Origin: Bolinopsis microptera
Lineage: Eukaryota; Ctenophora; Tentaculata; Lobata; Bolinopsidae
Direction of reading: 5' to 3'
DNA: 64,000 bases
NCBI RefSeq assembly: GCF_026151205.1
Contig: NC_087078.1
Coordinates: 4,109,675-4,173,674 of the forward strand
Part shown: in pieces, positions 4,778 through 45,183 of the stretch
Position numbering within the stretch: the stretch's first letter is position 1
Layout of the letters: every line of letters starts with the position of its first letter
Position numbers and translations under genes: made by a program
The notes under the pieces: model-generated
The model's input: only the letters and a program-made list of their open reading frames with translations
The model's database searches: none
What the model was told of the DNA's origin: nothing

Positions 4778-5669
4778 CTGAAAATAAAAGCTCGGTTAGC
4801 TTTTAAAGGTGTGACAACCTGTTTAATGCTGAAGATCATTTCAGCTTAAACGGAATAATAGGATAAAAATTAAAATATGTGAATCATCAAAGCAACTGTA
4901 GTTTTAATAATAATTTTATTCCCAACAGTTCTGACAGGTAAAGTATGTAGTTACATAATCAGAGCTAAAAGGTTCTGGCAATGACTCCTGAAACAGTAAA
5001 CCATGATTAACCGCCAATACCAGGTTCATGCTCACAATCTGATTATTGCTCATTACGATAAACCAAACAGTAGCCCCTGATATAATGTTCTTATCATTGG
5101 GACAAATCACATTGCAATAACAGCAGTATTATAAATATACGTGGGATTATCATGTTCTAAATATTAAACTTGAAATGATCGTTTAAGCGAATTTGATAAT
5201 TTAAATGAAATGTTTAAAAGTAGTTGTACGCGATATTGTTATTGCAATATGTCATTATGGTTACTAACCACGGTATTCGGTAATGTCACGAAGGGGCGAT
5301 TTAAGCTTTTTAAATACAACTGAAGTGAGGAAATGTGCGGTATGATGCGGTTTGTGCGGTATGATGCGGTGCTTGCTTTAAGTGACGTCAACTTTTATTT
5401 CACAAAATGTTTCCCTCGTTCATTAACCTAGATCATTGTATAAAGATTGTGGGAAAAACAGAATTTAACTTTTATTATCTGAACAATCCTCGCTAACTGT
5501 ACACTAGCTAGAGAGATGTTTGGCTAGTGAAATGGCGTGCTACAAGTTTATTAGTACGATACAATAAGCAGCTTTAATTAAAAGTGGTTACAGGGATATT
5601 CTTGTACAGCAGCTGCTAATTAGATTTGACATGGAAAATAGCTCGGTGGATCAGGTCATAGAGCAAATT
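4778..5669. other. Probable intron of the RNA-binding protein gene
   Basis: AT-rich sequence directly upstream (minus strand) of the acceptor at 4778. No second exon with an RNP2 motif was recognised. A short repeat of the words GCGGTATGATGCGGT lies near 5337-5371. Otherwise nothing is supported. Confidence 0.4.
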
Positions 5670-12814: not shown

Positions 12815-13204
12815 ACACGGAATAAGATAATCAATAAACTTAATCAATCTGGAAAACACGACCAGAACTCCGTGCAGTACATTCACAAATTAATTAACTT
12901 CCAGGTTAAAACTTAAAAGCAGAATATATCCAGGAGATTGTGTCAATCATGAATAAATTGTATACACATTGTGCAGGGCCATCCCGGTAATATCCTACTT
13001 GCTTGTTGTTACAAAATTAAGATAAGAAACGAGGCTGAAAGTCTAGCGGTTTCTTACTATCAGGTTCGTAAGACACACGAGGCTAACATGCCGTACACAC
13101 TAGAGTTACACTAGAGGCCGTTACATACTTTGACAGACGTGGGACGGAAGGTGTGGTGTGTAAAGTGGAGATCAGGTGACACATCTAATACCTTGTACAC
13201 AGTT

Positions 13205-13244
13205 TTAATACTTTCAACTCTACTATATAACAAATAATTTGAGG
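13205..13244 (+). promoter_or_regulatory. Conserved 5' UTR motif (candidate LINE promoter module), copy 1
   Basis: TTAATACTTTCAAC, then a CTACTATATAACAAATAA block ending TTTGAGG. The same 40 bp with two or three changes occurs at 39204-39243, upstream of the diverged family B. The last 22 bases occur on the minus strand at 58946-58925, upstream of family C ORF1. It contains a TATATAA word. A promoter role is inferred from conservation and position, about 185 bases upstream of the ORF1 ATG. Confidence 0.55.
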
Positions 13245-13428
13245 TATGAGATATGATAGACGAGCGTAAGTGTTGACGTGCAAAGGACTGCTGTGAGTGT
13301 ACTTGAAGATTACTCATCCTCCTCCTTCTCATCAAAACTATTCTCATCAAAACTACTATCTGGACTGAAGGTATTGCGTTTACAGTGTTTATTGTGCTTC
13401 TGAACATTGAACTCTTGATAATATAACT

Positions 13429-15302
13429 ATGTCAAATAATAAGAGCTCAGACATTAGTCTCCACTCTTGTGAGCGCCCTTTAGAACATTTGAACTTTTCA
13501 TTCCAGTCTGAAAAATCAGAGAACTGTAACAATTGTCTGTCAAAAGACATCAAGATTGACTTTTTAGAAAAAAAGTTGTCTTTATTGAATGAAATTATCA
13601 GAACTAGTGATCTCATTGCTCAGTACAATGATAGTCTCATATCAGATCAAACTCAAATACAAGAACAGAGTTTTAAGTGTGAAAATTTGCTGCCAAACTT
13701 ATCAGAGGAGATTGAATGTGAGATCATAACCATTACCCCTCAGTCACACGTTGTTATCAATCAAGTAGAAGCGTTTGATGTAGATGACATTGTTGTGGAA
13801 GATGTTGTATCGGACAGTTTGTTTGTTGACAACGATGTCGTGGACAAAGTTGTTCCACAGGAGGTTGTTGGAAACGAGATTGTTATCAGTGAGATTGTTG
13901 TTAACGAGGTTATGGCAGACGAGGATGATGTGTCTGATCTCCCTGTATCTACTGCTACTGGTGAATCACGGATCAAACCCCTAAGCCCAGAGACAAATAT
14001 CCAAACTTGGTCCGTACCCCTGTCTACGATCCTATAACACCGGGGCCAATGAATATATCTGTAACTTGTTCCCCATCACCAGTGAAACCAGTTACCCTAC
14101 TAGATGATGGTCCATTCTCTAAATTTTCACTTGATCTATTAATGGAAGAACTTGAGTTCAGTCACGGTTTTAAAAACAGGAAATCGGTTTATTTTGGTGA
14201 CTTTCCCTATGAGTACTCAGGTGCAACACATGACCCAAAAAGTGTACACAATGATTCCTACCTTGCTAAACTCAGCTCCTACATTAATGTGATATTACCC
14301 AATTTCAGACACAATAGTATTCTCGTCAATCTATATGAAACTGGAGCAGAGTTCATGCCAGCTCATAGCGATTCTGAATCATGTATTGTAGAACACTCTG
14401 ATATTGTAACCATTTCACTTGGTGCGACGAGAACACTGCAAATTAGATCAAACGGCAGCAATGAAGTTGTGGGCTCTGTGCAGCTTCAGCATGGAGATGT
14501 CTTCATCATGTCCAAATTGTCTCAGGCTGACTTTCAACATGAGATACTGCCAGACGAAATGTGTGATGAACCCCGGATCAGCATCACCCTAAGACTGATG
14601 AAGCCCCCTAGGATCACTCAGTCAACTGAGTTTGGTCTGCGTTCACCGCCCCCACCCATCCCCCATTCAGGACACAAACTGACAGACTCTTCTTCACCTG
14701 CACTCTCAGTTTGCAAACAGTCAGCTAAAGCTTCACAAAAGTCTGTCCTATTCATAAGCAGCTCTATGTTCAGGTTTCTTGATGCGGACAAGTTATCATC
14801 GTCCACTGTTAGTGCTAGTAAACTGTTTTATCCTGGGGCTGATGCCAAAGTAATGTTAAATAAACTAAAAACTGACCTACACTCTGTTCCATCCCCATCT
14901 ATTATTTATATTATGACAGGAACTAATAATGTGAACACAGTCTATTTTGGCTCAAAGTCACTGAAGGATGCAGCGGGTGACATTAGTAATCTCTTAAATT
15001 ATCTCAAGTCAGTGTATCCGAATGCAACAATTAATGTTCTCAATATTCTTCCCAGGAGTACAAAAGGCCGCAATGATGTTGTGGCAGAGCTAAATAAGGT
15101 TATTAAGGATATGTGTAGCAAAGATTCTTGTTTTAATTACATTAGCACCCATAATTTATTTAACTATAATAGAAGTGGATTCAGGAAAGAATTTTATTTT
15201 GCCAGACCATCTGCAAAAATATCTGATAACTGTCACCTCAATACAAGCGGTGTTATTCGACTTGCTAAATTTCTGAAGTATTGGGCCCATAAGCAAGTTT
15301 GA
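13429..15302 (+). pseudogene. LINE ORF1 with AlkB-like dioxygenase and SGNH esterase, frameshifted (copy 1)
   Basis: Same protein as the intact ORF1 at 19523-21397, but one base is lost near 13975. Copy 1 reads ATCAAACCCC where copy 2 reads ATCAACACCCC. The first frame runs on to a stop at 14035-14037, and the rest of the protein continues in another frame to 15302. The break falls just before the AlkB-like domain, so copy 1 can make only the N-terminal coiled-coil and Val/Asp-rich part in frame. The dioxygenase (HSD, later H and PRISITLR) and esterase regions are otherwise intact. This is either a real young mutation or a sequencing error in one copy. Confidence 0.9.
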
Positions 15303-15461
15303 ATGTTCAGAAAGATTGTTAACATTTATTTCATCTAGATAAGGGATAATTACACATTGTTCCTCATGTTTATTGAAGTTTTAGAAAGTTTTGTTATTAT
15401 CTCATACAAATTTGCCAGTTCTGCAATTTATCTTATTCTGACAAGTTTATAGCAGCATAAA

Positions 15462-18400
15462 TTGGAAAAATTTTCATGCTCTCACAGCAGTTCTTGCATT
15501 AACCCGTGCATTAGTAAAATCACAGTTTCATACCATGCCAAAAAGCTTGCAGTGGGACATTGCAACATGCAGGGAGGACTAACAGGTATGCCAAAATGTC
15601 TTGAAATCCAAGATCTAATCTGGAAAGAGAAATTAGATGTTTTATGCCTGAATGAAACAAATCTTAAGTCGGATATTGACTCAGCCAGTCTAAACCTACC
15701 CAAGAATTTTACTTTTATCCGCAAAGACCGTCCTAACGACAATGGTCATGGGGGATGTGGCATTCTCATCAGTGAGCACATAAAGTTTAAAATGATTCAA
15801 CTAAACTTAGTTTTGCAATATGACCAAATCGAGGCTATTTGGATCCATCTTACAGATTGCAATATTTTCATCTGCTGTTTCTACAGATCTGAGTTGTTTA
15901 GTCCTCTTGACAAATTTTTAGATTATATGACAGACTGCATGATGAGTATAGGAAGTAAGAATGTTATTTGGCTGGGTGATGTAAATGTAGACCAAAACAA
16001 CATCAGCAGTATGAACTATAAGAAATTAGACATTACAATGAAAATGTTTGGAATGGTACAGGTAGTTCAGGATATTACCCGCATTGCTAAACTAGGAAAC
16101 AGAATCACAAAGACCACAATCGATGTTGTCATAACAAACACTTACTCCAAGTTTCTTGACTGCAAAGTCCTTGATGATTGTATAGGAGATCATCAGGTCG
16201 TAAAGTTCATTGTCGATTTCAATGTGCATAAGGCCTCAAAATTCAAGAAGTTACTAATAAGAGATCACAGCAAAATGAATGTTACTGCTCTTAAAGAATT
16301 TTTGGAAACTTGTGATTATAGACCAATAATAGATTCAACTAGTCTGAATGATGCAGTTGATGGTTTAAACGAACATATTGATCACTACTATGATCACTTC
16401 TGTCCAATTAAACAAATTAAGTGCCATAGTGATTACATCCATAAGCCATCTCCAGAATTTTTAGAAAGTAAGAAATTGAAAGGGAAACTTTACCGTAAAT
16501 TTTTAACACACAACAAGAACAGACGTATACATCCAAATGGTCTTATACACTGTAATAAATGTGACTCATTATGGATGGCATATAAACGGCAGAGAAACTA
16601 TTCAACCTATTTGTCTAGAATTAATAGGAAGACTAACTTAGCAACAGAACTGAAAGCCAAGTGTGCCATGAATGATCTAAAGGGTGTATGGAAAACGATA
16701 AAGACAGCATCAAATCTGCCTGTTAAAGCTAACAATATCAATAACAATCTTGATGCTGAAACCACCAATAAATATTTTGCTGAAATAGGTCCAAAGATCC
16801 AAGCAGAAGTGCAGCTGGAAAATGAAAATGAATTTCTATCTTATCTACAAAATGAGCAGATTGACAACGAGACCAGCTTGAATAGCTTTACTGAAATAAC
16901 TGAGTCCAATATCTTAGACTATGTGGCAAGTATCCCTTGTAGCAAATCCACTAATGATCATATACCATTGAGAGTGTTTAGACAAATTTTACCTGCATTT
17001 ATTGCTCCATTAACACATCTTGTAAATTTGAGTTTATCCAGTGGCATCATGCCAAACAGCTGCAAGGTTGCAAAAGTCACCCCAATCCATAAGGATGGTG
17101 ATACTGAGAATCCTAGTAATTATCGACCAATCTCAATTTTACCGATTCTTGGAAAGTGCATCGAATTTTGTGTGAACTCCCAACTGACTCAATATCTTGA
17201 TGAAAAGGGAATACTTTCAGAGCATCAATATGGTTTCCGTAAAGATCACTCTACAACTTATCTCATGTTAGATCTGTTTGATCGTATATTTACTGCTAAG
17301 AACAGTGCCAAGCATCCTGCAATTATCTTCCTGGACATCAGAAAGGCATTTGATACTGTTAACCATGATATTCTCATTCAAAAGCTGAAGCATTATGGAA
17401 TAAAAGATACTGCATTGAGCTGGTTTAGGAGCTTCCTCACAGATAGATTACAGCAAACTAGAGTTGGGAGTAGGATAAGCAGTTTACATTCATTGAACTC
17501 TGGAGTGCCTCAAGGAAGTATATTAGGACCAATTCTATTCAGCATTTTTATCAATGACCTGCCTAATGCATGCCTATTTTCTAAACCTTATCTATTTGCT
17601 GATGACGGTGCATTATATTTTGACAATATATCTAGAGGAAACTATGGTAACATCAAACAAGAGTTGAAATTAGTTATCAGATGGCTTCAGGCTAATAAAC
17701 TATCCCTGAATAATGAAAAAACAAAACTAATGATCCTTGACTCTAAGCCTAACCTTGATGCCATCCTTGTTGAAATTTGTGATGACCTTACTTTGGTAAT
17801 CTGTGAAACTAAATCCCATAAGTACCTTGGACTTATAGTTGACAGCAGATTGACATTTAATGAACATATTGATAACATTAAGAAAAAGATATCCAAAAGA
17901 ATTGGTGCTATGTATAGATCAAAAAAACTTCTCCCTCTTAAGTTCAGGAAGATGTTTGCTAATGCACTTATGTTGCCACATTTTGACTACTTAGACACCA
18001 TCTGGTCAAGAACATATAAAAAACGACTAGGAGAGTTAGATATCATGTACAAAAAGGTTGCTAAAATAGCCCTAGATGTAAACATCAGAGAGAGGTCGGT
18101 TAATGTATACAAAAATATGGGATGGCTTCCTCTCCATTTGAGACGACAGGTTCATCTTAGCTCATATATGTACCGTATAATCAATGAAACATGTCCAAAG
18201 CATTTTATCGGGAAATTCTCGTATATTTCTGGTGGATCACGTGAGGCAGAAAACTGCAATCTTTATACTCCTAAATCAAGATCTCACAAGGAGTTTAACT
18301 ATCTAGGAACTAAGGCCTGGAACATATTACCAAAGTCCCTTAGAGAGTGTGACGACGTTAAGAAATTTTCTAAGTTATACAAAGAAACTCTTATGAATAT

Positions 18401-18482
18401 GGTGCTAACTGATGAGAATTACCAAGGGGATAACTCTTACGATAAATTCATGATCCCACCCAACACTAGCCAATGTATCTAG
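15462..18482 (+). CDS. LINE ORF2: EEP endonuclease and reverse transcriptase (copy 1)
   Basis: A polyprotein of about 1000 residues for target-primed reverse transcription. The N-terminal EEP nuclease spans residues about 28-255 counted from 15462. It shows the Asn of GHCNMQGG, the Glu of LNETN, the WLGDVNVDQN block, TTIDVV and the final GDH. The RT follows at about 500-800, with FLDIRKAFDTVNHD, GVPQGSILGP and the catalytic FADD. A C-terminal LINE domain ends near VKKFSKLYKETL. The first codon at 15462 is TTG. The frame opens after a TAG at 15450-15452, and the first in-frame ATG (15567) comes after the catalytic Asn, so the true start is unclear. It is identical in translation to copy 2. Confidence 0.95.
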   Translation: MEKFSCSHSSSCINPCISKITVSYHAKKLAVGHCNMQGGLTGMPKCLEIQDLIWKEKLDVLCLNETNLKSDIDSASLNLPKNFTFIRKDRPNDNGHGGCGILISEHIKFKMIQLNLVLQYDQIEAIWIHLTDCNIFICCFYRSELFSPLDKFLDYMTDCMMSIGSKNVIWLGDVNVDQNNISSMNYKKLDITMKMFGMVQVVQDITRIAKLGNRITKTTIDVVITNTYSKFLDCKVLDDCIGDHQVVKFIVDFNVHKASKFKKLLIRDHSKMNVTALKEFLETCDYRPIIDSTSLNDAVDGLNEHIDHYYDHFCPIKQIKCHSDYIHKPSPEFLESKKLKGKLYRKFLTHNKNRRIHPNGLIHCNKCDSLWMAYKRQRNYSTYLSRINRKTNLATELKAKCAMNDLKGVWKTIKTASNLPVKANNINNNLDAETTNKYFAEIGPKIQAEVQLENENEFLSYLQNEQIDNETSLNSFTEITESNILDYVASIPCSKSTNDHIPLRVFRQILPAFIAPLTHLVNLSLSSGIMPNSCKVAKVTPIHKDGDTENPSNYRPISILPILGKCIEFCVNSQLTQYLDEKGILSEHQYGFRKDHSTTYLMLDLFDRIFTAKNSAKHPAIIFLDIRKAFDTVNHDILIQKLKHYGIKDTALSWFRSFLTDRLQQTRVGSRISSLHSLNSGVPQGSILGPILFSIFINDLPNACLFSKPYLFADDGALYFDNISRGNYGNIKQELKLVIRWLQANKLSLNNEKTKLMILDSKPNLDAILVEICDDLTLVICETKSHKYLGLIVDSRLTFNEHIDNIKKKISKRIGAMYRSKKLLPLKFRKMFANALMLPHFDYLDTIWSRTYKKRLGELDIMYKKVAKIALDVNIRERSVNVYKNMGWLPLHLRRQVHLSSYMYRIINETCPKHFIGKFSYISGGSREAENCNLYTPKSRSHKEFNYLGTKAWNILPKSLRECDDVKKFSKLYKETLMNMVLTDENYQGDNSYDKFMIPPNTSQCI

Positions 18483-18755
18483 GCAGTTATGTTATTTCGG
18501 TTAAGTTATCTCAGTACATAAGTGAATCCAATCTATCCCCTGCAATCAAAGTATTTCCATGCCTATTAAGCTATTACAGGAAATTAGGAACATCAGTGGA
18601 AAGGTGCACTGTCAATCATTATTGCTCCATACCTCCAGTCCTCCTGTTATGTGCAATTCTCACTGCTATATATGCTCCTCATTTGTATCAATTATATTGA
18701 TGCTACATTGTTATTGAATATGAAATAATTTTCAACCGTATTAATTTATTAACTT

Positions 18756-18885
18756 ATTGTAAATAGCAAGTTTGACAAAGGGATTACGTTTATTTTACCT
18801 GGAGTTCGTTTAAGTTTAGTATTGTAAATAGTTAATTTGACGAAGGGAATACGTCTATTTTACCCTGAGTTATGTTTTAGTTCAA
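18756..18885 (+). repeat. 3' UTR direct repeat pair, 65 bp units (copy 1)
   Basis: Two imperfect 65-base units lie back to back in the LINE 3' UTR. Each begins ATTGTAAATAG, continues TTTGACAAAGGGA or TTTGACGAAGGGA, then TTACGT or ATACGTC, TATTTTACC and a TTTAGTT-like end. The pair recurs at 24851-24980. A role in RT recognition of the template is plausible but only inferred. Confidence 0.8.
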
Positions 18886-19298
18886 TCTTGACACAATTTT
18901 AAAGTAGTACACGGAATAAGATAATCAATAAACTTAATCAATCTGGAAAACACGACCAGAACTCCGTGCAGTACATTCACAAATTAATTAACTTCCAGGT
19001 TAAAACTTAAAAGCAGAATATATCCAGGAGATTGTGTCAATCATGAATAAATTGTATACACATTGTGCAGGGCCATCCCGGTAATATCCTACTTGCTTGT
19101 TGTTACAAAATTAAGATAAGAAACGAGGCTGAAAGTCTAGCGGTTTCTTACTATCAGGTTCGTAAGACACACGAGGCTAACATGCCGTACACACTAGAGT
19201 TACACTAGAGGCCGTTACATACTTTGACAGACGTGGGACGGAAGGTGTGGTGTGTAAAGTGGAGATCAGGTGACACATCTAATACCTTGTACACAGTT

Positions 19299-19338
19299 TT
19301 AATACTTTCAACTCTACTATATAACAAATAATTTGAGG
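19299..19338 (+). promoter_or_regulatory. Conserved 5' UTR motif, copy 2
   Basis: Exact counterpart of the motif at 13205-13244, at an offset of 6094 bases and about 185 bases upstream of the ORF1 ATG. Confidence 0.55.
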
Positions 19339-19522
19339 TATGAGATATGATAGACGAGCGTAAGTGTTGACGTGCAAAGGACTGCTGTGAGTGTACTTGA
19401 AGATTACTCATCCTCCTCCTTCTCATCAAAACTATTCTCATCAAAACTACTATCTGGACTGAAGGTATTGCGTTTACAGTGTTTATTGTGCTTCTGAACA
19501 TTGAACTCTTGATAATATAACT

Positions 19523-21397
19523 ATGTCAAATAATAAGAGCTCAGACATTAGTCTCCACTCTTGTGAGCGCCCTTTAGAACATTTGAACTTTTCATTCCAG
19601 TCTGAAAAATCAGAGAACTGTAACAATTGTCTGTCAAAAGACATCAAGATTGACTTTTTAGAAAAAAAGTTGTCTTTATTGAATGAAATTATCAGAACTA
19701 GTGATCTCATTGCTCAGTACAATGATAGTCTCATATCAGATCAAACTCAAATACAAGAACAGAGTTTTAAGTGTGAAAATTTGCTGCCAAACTTATCAGA
19801 GGAGATTGAATGTGAGATCATAACCATTACCCCTCAGTCACACGTTGTTATCAATCAAGTAGAAGCGTTTGATGTAGATGACATTGTTGTGGAAGATGTT
19901 GTATCGGACAGTTTGTTTGTTGACAACGATGTCGTGGACAAAGTTGTTCCACAGGAGGTTGTTGGAAACGAGATTGTTATCAGTGAGATTGTTGTTAACG
20001 AGGTTATGGCAGACGAGGATGATGTGTCTGATCTCCCTGTATCTACTGCTACTGGTGAATCACGGATCAACACCCCTAAGCCCAGAGACAAATATCCAAA
20101 CTTGGTCCGTACCCCTGTCTACGATCCTATAACACCGGGGCCAATGAATATATCTGTAACTTGTTCCCCATCACCAGTGAAACCAGTTACCCTACTAGAT
20201 GATGGTCCATTCTCTAAATTTTCACTTGATCTATTAATGGAAGAACTTGAGTTCAGTCACGGTTTTAAAAACAGGAAATCGGTTTATTTTGGTGACTTTC
20301 CCTATGAGTACTCAGGTGCAACACATGACCCAAAAAGTGTACACAATGATTCCTACCTTGCTAAACTCAGCTCCTACATTAATGTGATATTACCCAATTT
20401 CAGACACAATAGTATTCTCGTCAATCTATATGAAACTGGAGCAGAGTTCATGCCAGCTCATAGCGATTCTGAATCATGTATTGTAGAACACTCTGATATT
20501 GTAACCATTTCACTTGGTGCGACGAGAACACTGCAAATTAGATCAAACGGCAGCAATGAAGTTGTGGGCTCTGTGCAGCTTCAGCATGGAGATGTCTTCA
20601 TCATGTCCAAATTGTCTCAGGCTGACTTTCAACATGAGATACTGCCAGACGAAATGTGTGATGAACCCCGGATCAGCATCACCCTAAGACTGATGAAGCC
20701 CCCTAGGATCACTCAGTCAACTGAGTTTGGTCTGCGTTCACCGCCCCCACCCATCCCCCATTCAGGACACAAACTGACAGACTCTTCTTCACCTGCACTC
20801 TCAGTTTGCAAACAGTCAGCTAAAGCTTCACAAAAGTCTGTCCTATTCATAAGCAGCTCTATGTTCAGGTTTCTTGATGCGGACAAGTTATCATCGTCCA
20901 CTGTTAGTGCTAGTAAACTGTTTTATCCTGGGGCTGATGCCAAAGTAATGTTAAATAAACTAAAAACTGACCTACACTCTGTTCCATCCCCATCTATTAT
21001 TTATATTATGACAGGAACTAATAATGTGAACACAGTCTATTTTGGCTCAAAGTCACTGAAGGATGCAGCGGGTGACATTAGTAATCTCTTAAATTATCTC
21101 AAGTCAGTGTATCCGAATGCAACAATTAATGTTCTCAATATTCTTCCCAGGAGTACAAAAGGCCGCAATGATGTTGTGGCAGAGCTAAATAAGGTTATTA
21201 AGGATATGTGTAGCAAAGATTCTTGTTTTAATTACATTAGCACCCATAATTTATTTAACTATAATAGAAGTGGATTCAGGAAAGAATTTTATTTTGCCAG
21301 ACCATCTGCAAAAATATCTGATAACTGTCACCTCAATACAAGCGGTGTTATTCGACTTGCTAAATTTCTGAAGTATTGGGCCCATAAGCAAGTTTGA
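19523..21397 (+). CDS. LINE ORF1: coiled coil, AlkB-like 2OG-Fe(II) dioxygenase, SGNH hydrolase
   Basis: A 624-residue protein starting at a true ATG. Residues 1-90 are polar and coiled-coil-like, and about 110-175 are a Val/Asp/Glu-rich linker. Residues about 235-395 match the AlkB family of 2-oxoglutarate and Fe(II)-dependent demethylases: Asn-x-Tyr at 301-303, His313-x-Asp315 (MPAHSDSE), His371, and the C-terminal PRISITLR with Arg383 and Arg389. AlkB enzymes remove methyl groups from N1-methyladenine and N3-methylcytosine in nucleic acids. Residues about 440-620 resemble the SGNH esterase known from CR1 ORF1. The candidate nucleophile is Ser446, in ISSSMFR where GDS is usual, with GTNN in block III and Asp600-x-x-His603. 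In the element this protein probably binds RNA and accompanies ORF2. Its substrate is not known. Confidence 0.9.
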   Translation: MSNNKSSDISLHSCERPLEHLNFSFQSEKSENCNNCLSKDIKIDFLEKKLSLLNEIIRTSDLIAQYNDSLISDQTQIQEQSFKCENLLPNLSEEIECEIITITPQSHVVINQVEAFDVDDIVVEDVVSDSLFVDNDVVDKVVPQEVVGNEIVISEIVVNEVMADEDDVSDLPVSTATGESRINTPKPRDKYPNLVRTPVYDPITPGPMNISVTCSPSPVKPVTLLDDGPFSKFSLDLLMEELEFSHGFKNRKSVYFGDFPYEYSGATHDPKSVHNDSYLAKLSSYINVILPNFRHNSILVNLYETGAEFMPAHSDSESCIVEHSDIVTISLGATRTLQIRSNGSNEVVGSVQLQHGDVFIMSKLSQADFQHEILPDEMCDEPRISITLRLMKPPRITQSTEFGLRSPPPPIPHSGHKLTDSSSPALSVCKQSAKASQKSVLFISSSMFRFLDADKLSSSTVSASKLFYPGADAKVMLNKLKTDLHSVPSPSIIYIMTGTNNVNTVYFGSKSLKDAAGDISNLLNYLKSVYPNATINVLNILPRSTKGRNDVVAELNKVIKDMCSKDSCFNYISTHNLFNYNRSGFRKEFYFARPSAKISDNCHLNTSGVIRLAKFLKYWAHKQV

Positions 21398-21556
21398 ATG
21401 TTCAGAAAGATTGTTAACATTTATTTCATCTAGATAAGGGATAATTACACATTGTTCCTCATGTTTATTGAAGTTTTAGAAAGTTTTGTTATTATCTCAT
21501 ACAAATTTGCCAGTTCTGCAATTTATCTTATTCTGACAAGTTTATAGCAGCATAAA

Positions 21557-24500
21557 TTGGAAAAATTTTCATGCTCTCACAGCAGTTCTTGCATTAACCC
21601 GTGCATTAGTAAAATCACAGTTTCATACCATGCCAAAAAGCTTGCAGTGGGACATTGCAACATGCAGGGAGGACTAACAGGTATGCCAAAATGTCTTGAA
21701 ATCCAAGATCTAATCTGGAAAGAGAAATTAGATGTTTTATGCCTGAATGAAACAAATCTTAAGTCGGATATTGACTCAGCCAGTCTAAACCTACCCAAGA
21801 ATTTTACTTTTATCCGCAAAGACCGTCCTAACGACAATGGTCATGGGGGATGTGGCATTCTCATCAGTGAGCACATAAAGTTTAAAATGATTCAACTAAA
21901 CTTAGTTTTGCAATATGACCAAATCGAGGCTATTTGGATCCATCTTACAGATTGCAATATTTTCATCTGCTGTTTCTACAGATCTGAGTTGTTTAGTCCT
22001 CTTGACAAATTTTTAGATTATATGACAGACTGCATGATGAGTATAGGAAGTAAGAATGTTATTTGGCTGGGTGATGTAAATGTAGACCAAAACAACATCA
22101 GCAGTATGAACTATAAGAAATTAGACATTACAATGAAAATGTTTGGAATGGTACAGGTAGTTCAGGATATTACCCGCATTGCTAAACTAGGAAACAGAAT
22201 CACAAAGACCACAATCGATGTTGTCATAACAAACACTTACTCCAAGTTTCTTGACTGCAAAGTCCTTGATGATTGTATAGGAGATCATCAGGTCGTAAAG
22301 TTCATTGTCGATTTCAATGTGCATAAGGCCTCAAAATTCAAGAAGTTACTAATAAGAGATCACAGCAAAATGAATGTTACTGCTCTTAAAGAATTTTTGG
22401 AAACTTGTGATTATAGACCAATAATAGATTCAACTAGTCTGAATGATGCAGTTGATGGTTTAAACGAACATATTGATCACTACTATGATCACTTCTGTCC
22501 AATTAAACAAATTAAGTGCCATAGTGATTACATCCATAAGCCATCTCCAGAATTTTTAGAAAGTAAGAAATTGAAAGGGAAACTTTACCGTAAATTTTTA
22601 ACACACAACAAGAACAGACGTATACATCCAAATGGTCTTATACACTGTAATAAATGTGACTCATTATGGATGGCATATAAACGGCAGAGAAACTATTCAA
22701 CCTATTTGTCTAGAATTAATAGGAAGACTAACTTAGCAACAGAACTGAAAGCCAAGTGTGCCATGAATGATCTAAAGGGTGTATGGAAAACGATAAAGAC
22801 AGCATCAAATCTGCCTGTTAAAGCTAACAATATCAATAACAATCTTGATGCTGAAACCACCAATAAATATTTTGCTGAAATAGGTCCAAAGATCCAAGCA
22901 GAAGTGCAGCTGGAAAATGAAAATGAATTTCTATCTTATCTACAAAATGAGCAGATTGACAACGAGACCAGCTTGAATAGCTTTACTGAAATAACTGAGT
23001 CCAATATCTTAGACTATGTGGCAAGTATCCCTTGTAGCAAATCCACTAATGATCATATACCATTGAGAGTGTTTAGACAAATTTTACCTGCATTTATTGC
23101 TCCATTAACACATCTTGTAAATTTGAGTTTATCCAGTGGCATCATGCCAAACAGCTGCAAGGTTGCAAAAGTCACCCCAATCCATAAGGATGGTGATACT
23201 GAGAATCCTAGTAATTATCGACCAATCTCAATTTTACCGATTCTTGGAAAGTGCATCGAATTTTGTGTGAACTCCCAACTGACTCAATATCTTGATGAAA
23301 AGGGAATACTTTCAGAGCATCAATATGGTTTCCGTAAAGATCACTCTACAACTTATCTCATGTTAGATCTGTTTGATCGTATATTTACTGCTAAGAACAG
23401 TGCCAAGCATCCTGCAATTATCTTCCTGGACATCAGAAAGGCATTTGATACTGTTAACCATGATATTCTCATTCAAAAGCTGAAGCATTATGGAATAAAA
23501 GATACTGCATTGAGCTGGTTTAGGAGCTTCCTCACAGATAGATTACAGCAAACTAGAGTTGGGAGTAGGATAAGCAGTTTACATTCATTGAACTCTGGAG
23601 TGCCTCAAGGAAGTATATTAGGACCAATTCTATTCAGCATTTTTATCAATGACCTGCCTAATGCATGCCTATTTTCTAAACCTTATCTATTTGCTGATGA
23701 CGGTGCATTATATTTTGACAATATATCTAGAGGAAACTATGGTAACATCAAACAAGAGTTGAAATTAGTTATCAGATGGCTTCAGGCTAATAAACTATCC
23801 CTGAATAATGAAAAAACAAAACTAATGATCCTTGACTCTAAGCCTAACCTTGATGCCATCCTTGTTGAAATTTGTGATGACCTTACTTTGGTAATCTGTG
23901 AAACTAAATCCCATAAGTACCTTGGACTTATAGTTGACAGCAGATTGACATTTAATGAACATATTGATAACATTAAGAAAAAGATATCCAAAAGAATTGG
24001 TGCTATGTATAGATCAAAAAAACTTCTCCCTCTTAAGTTCAGGAAGATGTTTGCTAATGCACTTATGTTGCCACATTTTGACTACTTAGACACCATCTGG
24101 TCAAGAACATATAAAAAACGACTAGGAGAGTTAGATATCATGTACAAAAAGGTTGCTAAAATAGCCCTAGATGTAAACATCAGAGAGAGGTCGGTTAATG
24201 TATACAAAAATATGGGATGGCTTCCTCTCCATTTGAGACGACAGGTTCATCTTAGCTCATATATGTACCGTATAATCAATGAAACATGTCCAAAGCATTT
24301 TATCGGGAAATTCTCGTATATTTCTGGTGGATCACGTGAGGCAGAAAACTGCAATCTTTATACTCCTAAATCAAGATCTCACAAGGAGTTTAACTATCTA
24401 GGAACTAAGGCCTGGAACATATTACCAAAGTCCCTTAGAGAGTGTGACGACGTTAAGAAATTTTCTAAGTTATACAAAGAAACTCTTATGAATATGGTGC

Positions 24501-24577
24501 TAACTGATGAGAATTACCAAGGGGATAACTCTTACGATAAATTCATGATCCCACCCAACACTAGCCAATGTATCTAG
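21557..24577 (+). CDS. LINE ORF2: EEP endonuclease and reverse transcriptase (copy 2)
   Basis: Same protein as 15462-18482. The EEP nuclease should nick the target, and the RT should copy the element RNA from that nick. All main motifs are present: the nuclease Asn (HCN), LNETN, GDVNVDQN, TTIDVV and GDH; in the RT, FRKDHSTT, FLDIRKAFD, GVPQGSILGP, FADD at about 712-715, and the KYLGLIVD block. It is separated from ORF1 by about 150 bases with stops in the shared frame, so simple readthrough is excluded. No ATG lies between the upstream stop (ends 21547) and the catalytic Asn, so translation needs a non-AUG start or a spliced or otherwise rearranged leader. There is no PHD finger at the N-terminus, unlike family B. 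Confidence 0.95.
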   Translation: MEKFSCSHSSSCINPCISKITVSYHAKKLAVGHCNMQGGLTGMPKCLEIQDLIWKEKLDVLCLNETNLKSDIDSASLNLPKNFTFIRKDRPNDNGHGGCGILISEHIKFKMIQLNLVLQYDQIEAIWIHLTDCNIFICCFYRSELFSPLDKFLDYMTDCMMSIGSKNVIWLGDVNVDQNNISSMNYKKLDITMKMFGMVQVVQDITRIAKLGNRITKTTIDVVITNTYSKFLDCKVLDDCIGDHQVVKFIVDFNVHKASKFKKLLIRDHSKMNVTALKEFLETCDYRPIIDSTSLNDAVDGLNEHIDHYYDHFCPIKQIKCHSDYIHKPSPEFLESKKLKGKLYRKFLTHNKNRRIHPNGLIHCNKCDSLWMAYKRQRNYSTYLSRINRKTNLATELKAKCAMNDLKGVWKTIKTASNLPVKANNINNNLDAETTNKYFAEIGPKIQAEVQLENENEFLSYLQNEQIDNETSLNSFTEITESNILDYVASIPCSKSTNDHIPLRVFRQILPAFIAPLTHLVNLSLSSGIMPNSCKVAKVTPIHKDGDTENPSNYRPISILPILGKCIEFCVNSQLTQYLDEKGILSEHQYGFRKDHSTTYLMLDLFDRIFTAKNSAKHPAIIFLDIRKAFDTVNHDILIQKLKHYGIKDTALSWFRSFLTDRLQQTRVGSRISSLHSLNSGVPQGSILGPILFSIFINDLPNACLFSKPYLFADDGALYFDNISRGNYGNIKQELKLVIRWLQANKLSLNNEKTKLMILDSKPNLDAILVEICDDLTLVICETKSHKYLGLIVDSRLTFNEHIDNIKKKISKRIGAMYRSKKLLPLKFRKMFANALMLPHFDYLDTIWSRTYKKRLGELDIMYKKVAKIALDVNIRERSVNVYKNMGWLPLHLRRQVHLSSYMYRIINETCPKHFIGKFSYISGGSREAENCNLYTPKSRSHKEFNYLGTKAWNILPKSLRECDDVKKFSKLYKETLMNMVLTDENYQGDNSYDKFMIPPNTSQCI

Positions 24578-24850
24578 GCAGTTATGTTATTTCGGTTAAG
24601 TTATCTCAGTACATAAGTGAATCCAATCTATCCCCTGCAATCAAAGTATTTCCATGCCTATTAAGCTATTACAGGAAATTAGGAACATCAGTGGAAAGGT
24701 GCACTGTCAATCATTATTGCTCCATACCTCCAGTCCTCCTGTTATGTGCAATTCTCACTGCTATATATGCTCCTCATTTGTATCAATTATATTGATGCTA
24801 CATTGTTATTGAATATGAAATAATTTTCAACCGTATTAATTTATTAACTT

Positions 24851-24980
24851 ATTGTAAATAGCAAGTTTGACAAAGGGATTACGTTTATTTTACCTGGAGT
24901 TCGTTTAAGTTTAGTATTGTAAATAGTTAATTTGACGAAGGGAATACGTCTATTTTACCCTGAGTTATGTTTTAGTTCAA
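24851..24980 (+). repeat. 3' UTR direct repeat pair, 65 bp units (copy 2)
   Basis: Same pair as at 18756-18885. The second unit also begins the truncated copy at 61034, so truncation there fell inside the repeat. Confidence 0.8.
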
Positions 24981-25202
24981 TCTTGACACAATTTTAAAAT
25001 TATAATTTAATTATTTTATATATATGTATTGTCCATAACTAGGGTGGCCTGCTAACAGAACCATGATCTGCCTTGATTCATCCTTCAGCACAGAGAAAAG
25101 CTCCTTTTTATACATTATGATTACAGAGGATCTGATATTTAGATATATATTGCTGTGCTGTAAAAATTGACTTTATTTATTTATTTATTTTATTTTATTC
25201 AT

Positions 25203-25697
25203 TAGACACTGTAACACTCTCTCGTGTGCACTTAGTAACACTGTAACACTCTCTCGTGTGCACTTAGTAACACTGTAACACTCTCTCGTGTGCACTTAGT
25301 AACACTGTAACACTGTGTAAACGTGCACTTAGTAACACTGTAACACTGTGTAAATGTGCTCTTAGTAACACTGTAACACTGTAAATGTGCTCTTAGTAAC
25401 ACTGTGTGTATGTGCACTTAGTAACACTGTGTGAATGTGTACTTAGTAACACTGTAACACTCTCTCGTGTGTACTTAGTAACACTGTAACACTGTGTAAA
25501 TGTGCACTTAGTAACACTGTGTGTATGTGCACTTAGTAACACTGTAACACTGTGTAAATGTGCACTTAGTAACACTGTAACACTGTGTAAATGTGCACTT
25601 AGTAACACTGTGTCTATGTGCACTTAGTAACACTGTAACACTGTGTGAATGTGTACTTAGTAACACTGTAACACTGTGTGTATGTGCACTTAGTAAC
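25203..25697. repeat. Minisatellite of AGTAACACTGTAACACTGTG-type units
   Basis: About 15 variable units of 22-36 bases, combining TTAGTAACACTGTAACACT with CTCTCGTGTGCAC or GTGTAAATGTGCAC. It starts immediately after the LINE tail. Minus-strand open frames here are repeat by-products. Confidence 0.9.
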
Positions 25698-39243: not shown

Positions 39244-39833
39244 ATGTCCAATATGTCCATGGCTTGCTAAAGTCAACTGCATCGGGGGTACTATGATGGT
39301 CCAGGGGGTGCTGAATCAGAAGACTGGCACGCTAACCTGTTAAGAAGTTAAGTAGTTGTAGTGAATAATGTTTCTGTTTGGAAATGTATAACTCCATTCA
39401 CACCACAATCCACAATTGGACAATTGGACAACCCTGATTAATGTATAGATAGTGTTGAAAGAATTTTGAGCTTAAATCTTGAACCAATACTTCTGATAAC
39501 TTTTGGGGCTGTGCTCCAAGAACAGGCTGACATATATATGGCTTATGGATTATATTTAATGTATTCTGATTAAATGATAGGGCTTGCCAGTCCAACCACC
39601 TCATATTTTTCATACTCACTCACTCTCTTGTCCCATGTGTCGTAGTCCGTCAGTCTGTTCAATTTTTCAATCTTTTGAATCATTTTGACTAATCCAGTTT
39701 AAATACACTTTCATTGTTTTCCACAACGGAACATTTGAAATTGCTATCTGCTTTTCTTTCTTTCCAGGGAGTGTGCTGGTTGGACGTGAAGGTGCCCCCT
39801 GGATTGCCTGGTACCCCCAATTGCTTCTACGCC

Positions 39834-41795
39834 ATGAACGATACACCCACTGACTCTTCTCAATCTGTTCCGGACCAGACTTCAACTACTACGGTTCCGG
39901 ATCAGACTACACCTGCACCCACGACTCCTACCATTATGGTGGAAATTGACGAAGTACTGAAGGATGTTGAAAATATAATTCTTTCAGAATACCACGAATC
40001 AGAGGAAAATAAAGATTGTAGCAGCCTCCTTAGTTTCTTCTCAGGGTCTACCCCCCTTGACAACTTCCTGTTGACTCACTCGCAGAGCCTGCGCTCAGAG
40101 GTAGATATCATTAAGCTCAACATCTGTAACATTCTAAAACTTGATGTGAACAAATTTGCAATCATAACGCCATCTATGGTTAAGAGCTGCCCATCTCTTA
40201 AAAAACTCACCTTAGCAGAGGGTCTACTATCCCTGCTTGGCCTTGCAGAAAATGTCTGTGCTGTAATAAGTGGCAAGAGATGTGACCAAGAGGTTAAGTC
40301 CCCTTCTTATTTGTCAGCCCCCTCCAGCATTCCAATGGGTCATACTACTTCTAACGAAAGCTCTATACACAAGTCCTTAGAAGATATTCAAACATCCATT
40401 AAAAACTTGAAAGACAATGATAGCCACCTTAGGACTCTTGACTCCATAAACACCAAGCTTGCTGAGCTCAAAGTTGATATTAACTGTTTCAAAAACAGCA
40501 GATCCTCAAACGTATCCACTCCTGACCTGCCCATGCCTCCTTTTATCATAGGGCCACCAGCAGCCTGTGAAACAGACCATGAACAGCTCCTGCTAGATGC
40601 ACAGAAGCCTTCAAGTGCAGACGACCCTAAGTCTAAGCACATCATGTCTTATTTACCAGAATTCATTGATACAACCTTGAACTCTCAGCTATTAGATTTC
40701 CTTGCTCAACAGAACGATGATTTTGTCAAGAACACAGAAAACGGGCATGGAGTTATAAGCTTTGGTGAACGATATGATTACCCCGGGGCAAAAGCTGCTA
40801 AGCCCATATCAGAAGACCTGCCTGAAGTTCTTGCTGAACTTGCCTCAAGGATAAAGAAGCTTTGCCCTGAAACAGTTATTAATCAATGCCTGATCAACCG
40901 GTACAATGATGAGAGCAGTTTTCTCCCTAAACACTCGGATAACGAGAACTCGCTTGTGCATGATAGTTCGATTTTCACTGTATCGTAACTAGGAAGCCAG
41001 TGTTCAGTTAAGTTCTCAATGAAAGGATCAGAAAGTGGGGAAGTCATTGAGACAATAGAGGGACGCAGTCTATATATCATGAGCAAGCAGTCTCAGTTCC
41101 TCTGGGACCACAGAATAGATAAGAGCAGTGAAAGGAGGGACGTGAGATTCAGTATAACGTTCCGCTACGTGAGCAGCAGTAGCAATGCAACATTGATTAT
41201 TGGTGACTCAAATACCCGGTTCCTCCGATTTGGTGCTGGAAAAGGGACATTCGGTCACAAACTGCCTGGAAAAAGACTTGAATGCTTCACAATAGATCAG
41301 TTAGACCCTGCCCTTTGTGTAGGATATAAGAATGTTGTAGTACACTGTGGTGTAAATAATATTAAGAGGGGAGGGGGTGATGTTAAACACTGGGCTAATG
41401 AGCTGACGAAGAAGCTCACGAATATTTGTGAAATTTGTCCTTACTCTAAAGTTATAGTTTCACCAATCCTACCAACTAGGTCCTCCTGGCTAAATGAGAG
41501 AGCCATGGAGTTTAATAGTATATTGTTTGGGTACTGTAATACCAACGCTAGAATAGGAAATTTAGATTTTGATAGTTTTGTCGATGAGGAGGGTCTACTG
41601 AACAAACAGTTTTGTAGGTACAAGAAGCCGGATGACCCAATCCACCTGGGGTCAAGCGGTATCTTCAAACTCTCCCGGGCAATTGCCCATAAGATTCTAG
41701 GTAGCCCCGTTGATGGGAGGTTGTTCAGTGATGTTACCAAGGCCCAAAATAGATTTTCCCCACGTTCTCGTAGATCTGTAATCCAGTCATGGTAG
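39834..41795 (+). pseudogene. LINE family B ORF1: AlkB-like dioxygenase and SGNH esterase, one internal stop
   Basis: The frame is open from 39714 with a TTG, but the natural start is the ATG at 39834 (MNDTPTDSSQ). The N-terminus is Thr/Pro/Asp-rich and then helical. The AlkB-like domain follows, with an Asn-Arg-Tyr motif (LINRYND), His367-x-Asp369 (LPKHSDNE), then a TAA at 40986-40988. Beyond it, in the same frame, come a downstream His (LWDH) and DVRFSITFR with the 2-oxoglutarate-type Arg. Compared with family A, the TAA sits as an extra codon between TVS and LG rather than replacing a residue. The C-terminal SGNH hydrolase is canonical: GDSNTR, HCGVNN and DDPIHL for the Ser, Asn and Asp-His blocks. 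The stop overlaps the ORF2 start (ATGGTAG). Confidence 0.87.
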
Positions 41796-44700
41796 TCAAA
41801 CTGATATGCGAAATCTGCTGCTGTTGCGATAGACCTGTGCGTGCTGGACATCCATTTTTGATTTGTCAGATGTGTGACAAAATAATGCACAAAAAATGTA
41901 AAACTGATGATAACATAACCAAATTTCGAGATGCAACATACTGCAAAATATGCACTGATGCCAATGATATTGTACGGTACAACCCTTTCTACCAAGCTCC
42001 ACACTTTGCAAACAATGGCCTCATTGATGATGAGCCAGTTAATTATATTGAATCTATCTACAATAGCTCAAAGATTCTTGAAAATTGCAAAACATTCTCC
42101 ATAACTGAGTTGAATGCTACCGTCCTACCTAAAAATTCAGCTAAATATTTGTCCAAATTATTCCTAAATATTGATGGAAATGCATCAAACTTGGACAACA
42201 TTGCAGTTGAGCTGTCTTGTATCGACCACAAATTCTCTGTTATCGGTCTTGCAGAAACAAATACTAATCCCGAAAATGGAACTCTGTATCAGCTTAACGG
42301 ATACTCCTCCTGTTACCAATCACGTTATTTTTGTCAAAAGAAAAACCAGTTCAAGGGTAAAGGATCAGGAGTGTGTCTTTACCTGCACAACTCCTTTAAC
42401 TTTAACAAAATCCCTGGCTTATCTCTCTGTAATGAACACATAGAATCACTGTTCGTATCCATCACTAGCTTGCAAGACCCAACTGTTGTAGGGGTTATAT
42501 ACCGTCCCCCAAACGCATCACTTGAACTGTTCAACGAAGCATATGAATGTATTCTCTCAAAACTGAATGGCAAAAAAGTATATATTCTTGGTGATTTCAA
42601 TATAAACATGTTGAAGGACCCATCTCCATCAGAGGACAAATTCCAAGAAATAATATTCAACAACGGCTTCATACCAACCATATCAGTACCAACTCACCAA
42701 ATGCCTGGCTGTTCCAGGACCTGTATTGACAATATCCATACCAATGTAGTAGATCAAACCCTTATTTCTGGTGTGATATCTGACAAGATCTCCCACCATC
42801 ACCCTATATTCACTCTTATTGAACTTTCCCCTGACTCTGTGCCAACACCTGATTCATCAGACAAAATTACTATACACTACGACTATAGTAATGCTAACTT
42901 AGAAAAGCTCTGTCTTGAAATAGAAAACGATGTAGATAGGTTCCACCACAGCTGTAACACATTTGATTCTTTCATGCAGTTATTTCAAGAAAAGATAGAT
43001 TTGTCTTGCAAACTTCTAACTCCTAGAACCACTAAACGTAACAGCATAACCAACCCTTGGATTACCCAGGGCCTAATTAATTCCATCGATAAGAAAGCTA
43101 GGTTGTATTTCGAATGGAAGAAGACTTGTACATTAAAACTACCTGACGGGGACCCAAACAAGCACATCTACTACAAGGAATTCGACAAAGGTCAATAAAT
43201 ATGGCAAAGGCTATGTGCTATACTCAAAAATTCGAGAAGTACAGCATGAATTCGAAAAAGACTTGGGAAGTTATAAATGAACTCCGTGGTAAAAATTTGT
43301 CTAGATGTAAGGACGATTTTGTCATAGATGGCCAGAGAGTTACTTGCAGACGAATAATTGCTAACAAATTTTGTGAATATTTTACATCTCTTGCAAGTAA
43401 TCTCAATAAAAATGTATTGTCAAACAATAGTATTTCTCTGGAACCAGTAGAATCATTTGCTCAGTTCATGTCTAATTCAGTATCTGACTCCATATACCTA
43501 GAAGAAACTAATGAAGACGAGATTGTCGAGGTCATCAGAGATTTTCAAAATGGCAAGGCGAGTGACATACCTATAATCGTTGTAAAAAAATCGGCAAAGC
43601 TCATTGCTGGTACCTTGGCCAGGCTTTACAACACATGTATACAAAGTGGTACATTCCCAAGTATATTTAAAACTGGTAAAGTTATTCCTATTTACAAGAA
43701 AGACAATAAGGAATGCATTGAAAATTATCGGCCTGTATCAATATTACCTTTATTTGGAAAAATCTTTGAGAAGATCATTTACAAACGCCTTTATAATTTC
43801 TTCACATCTAAAGGTGTACTAACAGACTCACAGTTTGGATTTAGAAAAGGCCATTCTACCACTCATGCTCTACACAAATCTATAGACTCCGTTACAAAGT
43901 CTCTGGCTAGCAATAAACATGTCTTGGGCATATTCATTGACTTGAGCAAAGCCTTTGACACCCTTGATCACAATATTCTTCTAAGCAAGTTAAATTCCTA
44001 CGGTATTAGGGGTTCAGCACTTACCTTACTTAAAAGCTATTTGACTAACAGAAAGCAGTATGTTATGTATAACGATGTACCATCAGTAACAATGGACGTG
44101 AAATTTGGAGTACCACAAGGGTCAATTCTTGGGCCACTACTCTTCCTACTGTATATGAACGATATAGTAAACTGTTTTTCAGACAGTGAGGTGAAATTTG
44201 TACTTTATGCTGATGACACTAATATCTTCATATCAGGACCATCTAGAGAAGCAACATATAAAAAAGCCAACTTAGTACTTAAACATGTCTCGATCTACAT
44301 GAAATGTAATCTACTTCATATCAACATGTCCAAATGCTGCTACATACATTTTAAACCTGCCTCTGAATATGATGACACCTGTGCGCGGACTAGACCATTT
44401 GCTAACCTGCTAGATGAATCTAGATCAATATTCATCGATGGTAAGGTTATCACTAAAGTCAAGGATACCAAATTCTTAGGTGTTGTTATAGATAGTAAGC
44501 TAAACTGGACTGCCCACATGCACTACATCCGTAAAAAGCTGCGGACCATGACTGGTGCAATCTGTAGAATCCGGCACTCTATACCTGCTGAACTATACTT
44601 GAAAATATATAATGCTCTTTTTGAATCACATCTCAGTTATGGTATAAGTGTTTGGGGTGTTGTCATCAAGGAACGGTCCAATGACAGTCTTTTTATCACT

Positions 44701-45183
44701 CAGAAGCACTGTATAAGGATCCTTTTTGGTGATCTCGACTCATATCTAGATAAACAATCAACATGTGCAAGAACTAGACCATATTGTATGCAAAGATTAG
44801 GCCATAAACATTTTGAAAAGGAGCATACAAAACCCATTTTTAATAGACTAAAAATTCTTACAGTTCAAAACTTGTTCAAGTACCATTGCATTTCAGAATT
44901 CTCTAAGATTACCAAGTACCACTGCCCATACTCCCTTTATGAGGCCATCAACATTTCAAACCGTACAACGAGTTTAACGGTTATTCTTCTTAATAAATCA
45001 AATACTTTTTTGTTCACTGCAGCCAAGCTTTGGAACACTGTTCATAAAAAAATTCTAACCTCAAGCAATTGCCTAGAAACTTCCATTAACTTGATAAAAT
45101 TGAGAACCAAGGCACTATTATTACAAGTACAGGCTGCTGATTTAAAAGATACTTGGAATCCAAACAATTTTAAATTGCAGTAA
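41789..45183 (+). pseudogene. LINE family B ORF2: PHD finger, EEP endonuclease, reverse transcriptase, one frameshift
   Basis: Starts at ATG 41789, overlapping the ORF1 stop by seven bases. Residues about 7-60 form a PHD-type C4HC3 zinc finger (CEIC, then CQMC, HKKC and CKIC). PHD fingers usually read histone tails, so this could help chromatin targeting. An EEP nuclease follows: LNIDGN, LAETNTN, YILGDFNIN, CIDNI and the SHHHPI end. The first frame stops at 43196-43198. The protein resumes in another frame before 43201 (MCYTQKFEKYSMNSKKTWE), so one indel lies just upstream, in about 43160-43198. The RT in the second part has IFIDLSKAFDTLDH, GVPQGSILGP and catalytic YADD. A tail with a CARTRP motif follows, ending near 45183. 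Confidence 0.93.

Follow-up and report, generated by a model that had tools for sequence, protein, structure and literature searches.

The window analyzed here, a 64,000-nucleotide stretch of contig NC_087078.1 of the ctenophore Bolinopsis microptera, harbors two copies of a LINE designated family A and an element of another LINE family, designated K (Table 1). The downstream family A copy is intact, and it was for this copy that the original prediction proposed an AlkB-like dioxygenase and an SGNH esterase encoded in a single frame of a LINE ORF1, adjoining an ORF2 for an EEP endonuclease and a reverse transcriptase (RT). This arrangement was borne out, the two ORF1 domains being recovered through Pfam, an ORF1 profile, and the conservation of their ligand residues. 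The boundaries of the element were set by comparison with other family A copies of the genome, which share 98.2 to 99.6% identity with the window copy; 7/7 begin to match at positions 19290 to 19303 of the window, while 5/5 cease to match at 25192 to 25206.

Table 1. Features of the family A and family K elements in the window
Feature	Position	Strand	Basis or remarks
First copy of the family A element, in the tandem duplication	13201..18903	+	1-base difference interrupts ORF1; ORF2 intact; 3'-most ~200 bp missing
Second (intact) copy of the family A LINE, 5' end to 3' tail	19295..25205	+	Comparison with other copies
ORF1 (624 aa), with an acidic N-terminal part followed by the AlkB and SGNH esterase domains	19523..21397	+	ORF reading (ATG at 19523, stop codon ending at 21397) and Pfam
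AlkB (2OG-Fe(II) dioxygenase) domain, residues 251-393	20273..20701	+	PF13532, ALKBH3 8jnr match, ORF1 profile
H313-S-D315, presumed Fe(II) ligands (HxD)	20459..20467	+	H313 and D315 invariant in 11/11 aligned ORF1s
H371, presumed distal Fe(II) ligand	20633..20635	+	Invariant in 11/11 aligned ORF1s
R383-ISITL-R389, presumed 2-oxoglutarate-binding arginines	20669..20689	+	R383 and R389 invariant in 11/11; role from family knowledge
SGNH esterase domain, residues 438-624 (S446, G498, N500, H603)	20834..21394	+	PF13472 below cut-off; profile match to 4c1b; residues invariant in 11/11
ORF2: EEP endonuclease and RT	21557..24577	+	RVT_1 E 5.8e-37; Exo_endo_phos E 1.9e-4, below Pfam cut-off
Family K, another AlkB-SGNH LINE	39714..45183	+	ORF1 interrupted within AlkB; EEP and RT downstream

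The upstream family A copy belongs to a 6.09-kb tandem duplication (12815 to 18903 versus 18909 to 24998), the two units of which differ by no substitution and by one 1-base gap, and it is this gap that leaves the ORF1 of the first copy broken. Because the duplication is nearly identical, the AlkB match of the broken ORF1 (13429 to 15302; E 1.9e-18, Pfam) is not regarded as independent evidence. Of the 81 genome matches reported for ORF1, 20 (the window copy counted) cover residues 1 to 622 or more at 99 to 100% identity with no stop, and family A is therefore considered young. The window element is classed from its sequence as a young esterase-type (CR1/L2-like) LINE, its RT having been compared among the families of this genome only. 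The family K element gave matches to PF13532 (1.6e-6, a partial domain below the cut-off), GDSL (2.6e-4), Exo_endo_phos (4.1e-4), and RVT_1 (2.9e-36), and its C-terminal part is 55% identical to that of locus L050.

Residues 261 to 389 of the window ORF1 correspond to 2OG-FeII_Oxy_2 (PF13532; E 3.6e-18, 66.9 bits against a Pfam cut-off of 31.2 bits). The closest PDB relative of the single sequence is ALKBH3 (8jnr; residues 250 to 393, E 8.3e-15), followed by ALKBH2 and Escherichia coli AlkB. The same order was returned by the AlkB part of a profile built from 11 ORF1s of this genome (ALKBH3, 3.7e-27; ALKBH2, 4.2e-25; AlkB, 1.2e-11; ALKBH8, 4.2e-10), and none of the 54 PDB matches listed for that profile at E values up to 0.1 was a chain named ALKBH5 or FTO. 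The expectation that the region would show a significant profile match to the 2OG-Fe(II) fold was thus confirmed with both the single sequence and the ORF1 profile. A scan of viral contigs with the AlkB stretch returned no match.

All of the AlkB residues named in the original prediction are present (N301-L-Y303, H313-S-D315, H371, and R383-ISITL-R389), but the asparagine of the N-x-Y motif proved variable, being replaced by Thr, Ser, or another residue in other families according to a pattern search. Y303, H313, D315, E317, H371, R383, and R389 are invariant across the 11 aligned ORF1s, and H313, D315, H371, and R383 to R389 are unchanged in all seven of the other family A copies that were read, so that the anticipated conservation of the HxD...H...R residues in other copies held. 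It is the alignment of 11 ORF1s that served as the test of conservation, as the pattern counts are partly circular, the search pattern itself having required HxD and R.[SN].T.R. From knowledge of the family, we take H313, D315, and H371 to bind iron and R383 and R389 to bind 2-oxoglutarate. An AlphaFold model of the AlkB region, computed from the single sequence without an alignment, had a mean pLDDT of 30.6. To judge from the profile matches and ligand residues, the domain is almost certainly a member of the ALKBH2/3-type AlkB enzymes, and it is very probably catalytically active.

For the C-terminus of the window ORF1, the single-sequence match to SGNH/GDSL (PF13472, E 8.5e-5) falls below the Pfam cut-off, as do the single-sequence SGNH matches of related families, family G giving none. 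The C-terminal half of the ORF1 profile, in turn, matches a putative PAF-acetylhydrolase (2hsj, 2.7e-11) and the esterase of zebrafish ZfL2 ORF1 (4c1b, 6.1e-9). S446, G498, N500, and H603, which presumably form the esterase site as in other members of the family, are invariant in 11/11 aligned ORF1s. The assignment of an SGNH domain in the relatives is based on this profile match together with the Ser, Gly-x-Asn, and His shared by 14/14 aligned C-terminal parts (in the case of a Helitron described below, its N-terminal SGNH part).

The genome (264.65 Mb, 232 contigs) was searched for further carriers. At least 151 matches to PF13532 were obtained, those listed all lying above the cut-off (the best 150 of 587 first-look candidates were scored); these comprise transposons and host genes, and since only some were read individually, they are not all claimed as transposons. 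Of the 30 loci retained from this search, three resemble host genes, namely L009, which is ALKBH2-like (3.9e-60 to ALKBH2), L010, which is ALKBH3-like (3.3e-40), and L011. The last of these, in which an AlkB gene lies near an SGNH gene, was considered as a fourth association of the two domains and rejected: its AlkB groups with host ALKBH3 (85.7/85), its SGNH gene has 12 genome matches including itself, and the pair was treated as host genes.

Reading of the ORFs at 11 element loci, 10 RT loci, two further elements, and short PF13532 loci distinguished approximately 12 related LINE families with an AlkB-SGNH ORF1 (A, B, C, D [with two subfamilies], E1, E2, E3, F, G, I, J, and K). Their shared layout consists of a PHD-like or other N-terminal part followed by AlkB and SGNH, the PHD matches occurring in E2, G, and I and all lying below the Pfam cut-off. 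Family H represents a far more distant LINE, with an RT only 21 to 25% identical to those of the other families, and its order is AlkB, a long linker, and an SGNH-like domain recognized by alignment alone, Pfam giving no match. A third kind of carrier is the Helitron L043, in which one open frame encodes SGNH (5.1e-6, below cut-off), AlkB (2.9e-21), Helitron_like_N (6.5e-23), and PIF1 (4.3e-22); it is recognized as a Helitron by the presence of Rep/HUH and a Pif1 helicase within one ORF. The iron and 2-oxoglutarate ligands are kept in the AlkB domains shown from the Helitron and family H. Six of the listed PF13532 matches sit in frames longer than 2,200 aa, one of which was read nearly whole.

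The reverse survey examined 10 RT loci that had no listed AlkB neighbor, picked by eye from the best 150 scored of 6,502 RT candidates. An upstream AlkB was nevertheless found in full at three (L051, L052, and L059) and in part at a further three (L050, L054, and L056), two others (L055 and L058) retained ORF1 remnants of AlkB families, and at the remaining 2/10 (L053 and L057), read by eye, AlkB was absent from the fetched piece. It is, therefore, not proven that all related LINE families possess AlkB, yet the AlkB-SGNH ORF1 is widespread in this genome and does not represent an isolated capture.

The history of the domain was assessed in a tree of 29 AlkB domains of transposon, cellular, bacterial, and phage origin. 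LINE families A to G, I, and J, together with the Helitrons, are split from the cellular, bacterial, phage, and family H AlkBs at 97.4/98, family H falling on the cellular and phage side of this split. The transposon domain shares 25 to 35% identity with the plasmid and phage AlkBs listed as matches. The Helitron AlkB lies among those of the LINEs, in a position that is poorly supported (22/68 with I), and grouping of A to D as a single AlkB clade is likewise weak (79.2/70). In approximately unbiased (AU) tests, neither a single origin of all transposon AlkBs (p 0.268) nor a grouping of the LINE AlkBs (family H apart) to the exclusion of the Helitron (p 0.321) was rejected; pairing of the Helitron with family H was the sole constraint of the three to be rejected (p 0.0187), and the SH test did not reject it (p 0.062). 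The AlkB of the distant LINE possibly derives from a separate capture, which would imply more than one such event.

The RT and AlkB trees concur in placing E1 with E3 and differ elsewhere. B groups with D in the RT tree (90; based on a B copy with an incomplete RT) and with C in the AlkB trees, whereas E2 groups with G in the RT tree (99), with I and the Helitrons in one AlkB tree, and with J in the 29-domain tree. Part of this disagreement may be explained by an exchange of ORF1. Families B and C are 97.7% identical over 3,471 bp of ORF2 and the 3' end and about 52 to 73% identical in the 5' untranslated region and ORF1, with the switch located at the ORF1/ORF2 junction; similarly, subfamilies D1 and D2 show 49 to 82% identity in ORF1 windows and mostly 98 to 100% in ORF2 windows, with a diverged 3' end. 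It thus appears from these identity profiles that ORF1 has been exchanged between LINE backbones, and all four of the ORF1s concerned (B, C, D1, and D2) bear AlkB.

Selection was evaluated as dN/dS by the method of Nei and Gojobori for 17 pairs, of which 12 were comparable; the pairs left out were L025/L042 (the same locus twice), L031/L033 (too few changes), L045/L022 and L048/L049 (saturated), and A/B (no usable flank). Values for AlkB ranged overall from 0.05 to 0.32. The strongest constraint was observed in the three family H pairs (AlkB, 0.049 to 0.055; N-terminal part, 0.14 to 0.30; C-terminal part, 0.19 to 0.22), and the six Helitron pairs gave 0.142 to 0.319 for AlkB and 0.36 to 0.96 for its flanks. 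In B/C, AlkB (0.123) was likewise below the N-terminal part (0.211), and A/B gave 0.145 at a high dS. AlkB was the most constrained usable part of ORF1 in 10 of the 12 comparable pairs, the exceptions being D1/D2 (AlkB, 0.104; C-terminal part, 0.08, with dS nearly saturated) and B/L031 (AlkB, 0.237; N-terminal part, 0.424; C-terminal part, 0.225), in which the C-terminal part was at least as constrained. Among the seven other family A copies, comparison with the window copy revealed no distinct nonsynonymous and three synonymous changes in AlkB, and nine nonsynonymous and 12 synonymous changes in the rest of ORF1. These substitution patterns indicate that AlkB is under purifying selection in the elements.

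Esterase-type LINEs of the CR1, L2, and RTEX groups, exemplified by zebrafish ZfL2-1 (4c1b), resemble the window element in that their ORF1 ends in an SGNH domain retaining the catalytic residues and is accompanied by an EEP-RT ORF2. The PHD-like matches (below cut-off) of the relatives E2, G, and I are a further likeness, and the AlkB dioxygenase that precedes the esterase is the point of difference. Neither the main text of the ZfL2 paper (PMC3905857) nor that of the paper describing captured ORF3s in bdelloid rotifers (PMC5408684) contains the words AlkB or dioxygenase, the latter being comparable in that accessory domains, including SGNH, are common to unlike retroelements. The AlkB-SGNH ORF1 is new relative to the known esterase-type LINE ORF1. 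Among the open-access papers listed, judged by title and opening of the abstract, none announces an AlkB in a LINE or a Helitron, and an earlier notice may exist elsewhere.

The only transposon-encoded AlkB found in that literature is that of Ty3/Gypsy elements of the orchid Phalaenopsis, where an ALKBH5-like m6A demethylase occupies a separate ORF of an LTR retrotransposon in one orchid lineage (PMC9289625). Both cases concern an AlkB-family dioxygenase in a retrotransposon; the present one, in contrast, involves non-LTR elements and a Helitron, an esterase fusion, an ALKBH2/3-like domain, and many families. The same paper refers to AlkBs of plant RNA viruses (Alphaflexiviridae, Betaflexiviridae, and Closteroviridae), for which RNA repair has been proposed (PMC9289625); these likewise reside in a replicating RNA element but are not part of a LINE ORF1, and the likeness is one of description, not of sequence comparison. 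ALKBH3 and ALKBH2 themselves, known from structures and host genes, share with the window domain the profile, HxD...H, RxxxxxR, and the Glu two residues after the Asp of HxD (E317); the window domain differs from them in being part of a transposon protein and in its separation from the cellular and phage AlkBs in the tree.

To our knowledge, template repair has not been attributed to any other LINE protein. Enzymes of the ALKBH2/3 type remove m1A and m3C, at which reverse transcriptases stop. We propose that the AlkB domain acts as an active Fe(II)/2-oxoglutarate demethylase which would ride on the element's own RNP, ORF1p being bound to the LINE RNA, and would strip the RNA template and the single-stranded cDNA of N-methyl groups that sit on the base-pairing face (as in m1A, m3C, and similar lesions); as these lesions would stall reverse transcription, their removal would allow full-length cDNA to be completed. 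In the Helitron, the same chemistry would be applied to the single-stranded DNA intermediate, while the esterase would perform a separate membrane or lipid task, as has been proposed for ZfL2. A profile assigns the domain to an AlkB class without fixing its substrate, some relatives acting on m6A or on protein. Of the roles suggested in the original prediction (protecting or demethylating the element's own RNA or cDNA, or countering host methylation), action on the element's own RNA or cDNA is favored because the profile points to ALKBH3 and ALKBH2 and not to the m6A-type enzymes. That AlkB strips RT-blocking N-methyl lesions from the RNA template and from single-stranded cDNA or DNA jointly is a proposal to which we give about even chances, and cleaning of the RNA template may be its main role, a narrower claim for which the chances fall somewhat short of even.

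The proposal is supported by the recurrence of AlkB in elements of three kinds, all of which have a single-stranded nucleic acid stage. Published support for the RT logic is offered by OTTR, in which AlkB treatment removed m1A and m3C and most 3' tRNA halves were then better captured by the R2 RT, an enzyme of a non-LTR retroelement (PMC12140624). Against the proposal stand the effects of AlkB in the same study on intact tRNAs, which were only modest, and on m1G, which were small; the esterase class of ORF1p being reported without defined RNA-binding domains (PMC3905857); and the two pairs, D1/D2 and B/L031, in which the C-terminal part was at least as constrained as AlkB. The ORF1p of ZfL2 is described as dispensable in HeLa cells (PMC3905857), which suggests that the importance of ORF1 enzymes may be limited to certain settings.

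It is unlikely, in our assessment, that AlkB instead strips m6A or some other regulatory mark from the RNA of the element or the host, thereby permitting escape from host control. An m6A writer is probably present in this genome, to which eight MT-A70 matches were assigned (gene pieces, not eight genes; best E 4.9e-20), and the orchid Gypsy AlkB is an m6A demethylase in vitro for which the same role was proposed (PMC9289625). That domain is ALKBH5-like, however, whereas the window domain is ALKBH3/ALKBH2-like with no ALKBH5 or FTO chain among the PDB matches listed, and the occurrence of this module in a Helitron, for which no RNA intermediate is known, fits an RNA-mark eraser less well.

Action on DNA, by which AlkB would repair alkylated cDNA or Helitron single-stranded DNA or, at new insertions, would clear host DNA methylation or the 3mC that arises from it as a by-product, would suit LINEs and Helitron alike, and it accords with the standing of ALKBH2 and ALKBH3 as DNA repair enzymes and with a C5-methyltransferase-like gene in this genome (E 4.7e-32). 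As ORF1 proteins act mainly on RNA before integration, we hold it to be unlikely, and in part it overlaps with the proposed cleaning of RNA template and cDNA. AlkB folds also bind single strands, and the esterase-type ORF1p is reported to have no defined RNA-binding domains (PMC3905857), such that the AlkB fold could merely supply the missing single-strand binding module, its catalysis being irrelevant; a pure binding module should have lost some of the iron and 2-oxoglutarate ligands, which are invariant in 11/11 ORF1s across deep divergence, and this reading is very improbable. That AlkB is a functionless passenger, a host ALKBH exon caught by chance as LINEs and Helitrons are known to capture host sequence, is scarcely credible given its low dN/dS, the deep divergence within the LINE/Helitron AlkB clade, and its presence on both sides of the apparent ORF1 exchange.

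Returning to the removal of RT-blocking lesions, a broader and more tentative suggestion, which we consider doubtful as it stands, is that in this animal lineage the AlkB-esterase pair has become an accessory to replication that unrelated mobile elements share and exchange, these being LINEs of two or more distant lineages (possibly through more than one capture) and a class II Helitron. The AlkB half of the pair would free the single-stranded RNA or DNA of its element from methyl lesions that block the RT.

Of the LINE proteins, that of ORF1 is the least well understood, and for its esterase class we know of no agreed function. The retention of a demethylase-esterase fusion across many LINE families provides a biochemically testable hypothesis, namely that the element repairs its template in order that reverse transcription may finish, and the occurrence of the AlkB-esterase pair in a Helitron suggests a need common to elements with either kind of single-stranded intermediate. 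These elements would, in addition, be a source of new AlkB enzymes, which may be adapted to partner a reverse transcriptase, and would make it possible to ask if mobile elements of ctenophores are held in check by base methylation.

The window contains a 6.09-kb tandem duplication, across which no substitutions and a single one-base gap were found, and which could represent either a very recent event or an artefact of the assembly. Sequences similar to LINEs were also observed elsewhere in the window, namely, a family A 3'-end fragment, which shares 97-98% identity with the 3' ends of other copies, and an ORF with a PHD-like match under the Pfam cut-off, which aligns across 243 aa with the N-terminal part of the ORF1 of family J (L052) at 95% identity.

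Features of the window
Feature	Position	Strand	Details
Tandem duplication	12815-24998
Family A 3'-end fragment	61034-61289
PHD-like ORF	57702-58715	-
Homeodomain ORF	33607-34560	-	PF00046, 3.3e-22
Long tandem array	10241-11758		24-bp unit, 63 copies
Long tandem array	52595-52992		ACCCTG hexamer, about 66 copies

The AlkB and SGNH domains are also carried by a Helitron (L043:383-9901), in which one open frame of 3388 aa comprises SGNH, AlkB, repeat-rich linkers, Rep and a Pif1 helicase; among the matches listed, five more AlkB matches besides this element reside in frames of 2225-3366 aa. The two domains are adjacent outside transposons as well, at a locus (L070) where an SGNH-like ORF (4054-4911), which has 12 matches in the genome, lies some 700 bp downstream of an AlkB-like host gene (2455-3342). 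Furthermore, the flanks of two loci, L005 and L018, harbor an extra AlkB-like stretch, from a different family, adjoining the copies at these loci.

Between elements B and C (loci L071 and L072), ORF2 and the 3' end are 97.7% identical, whereas ORF1 is only approximately 52-73% identical, with the drop occurring abruptly where ORF1 meets ORF2. A comparable identity switch was apparent at the ORF1/ORF2 junction of D1 and D2 (L041 and L047). Judged from these sequence comparisons, LINE backbones appear to swap the whole 5' half, consisting of the 5'UTR and ORF1, among themselves (B/C and D1/D2).
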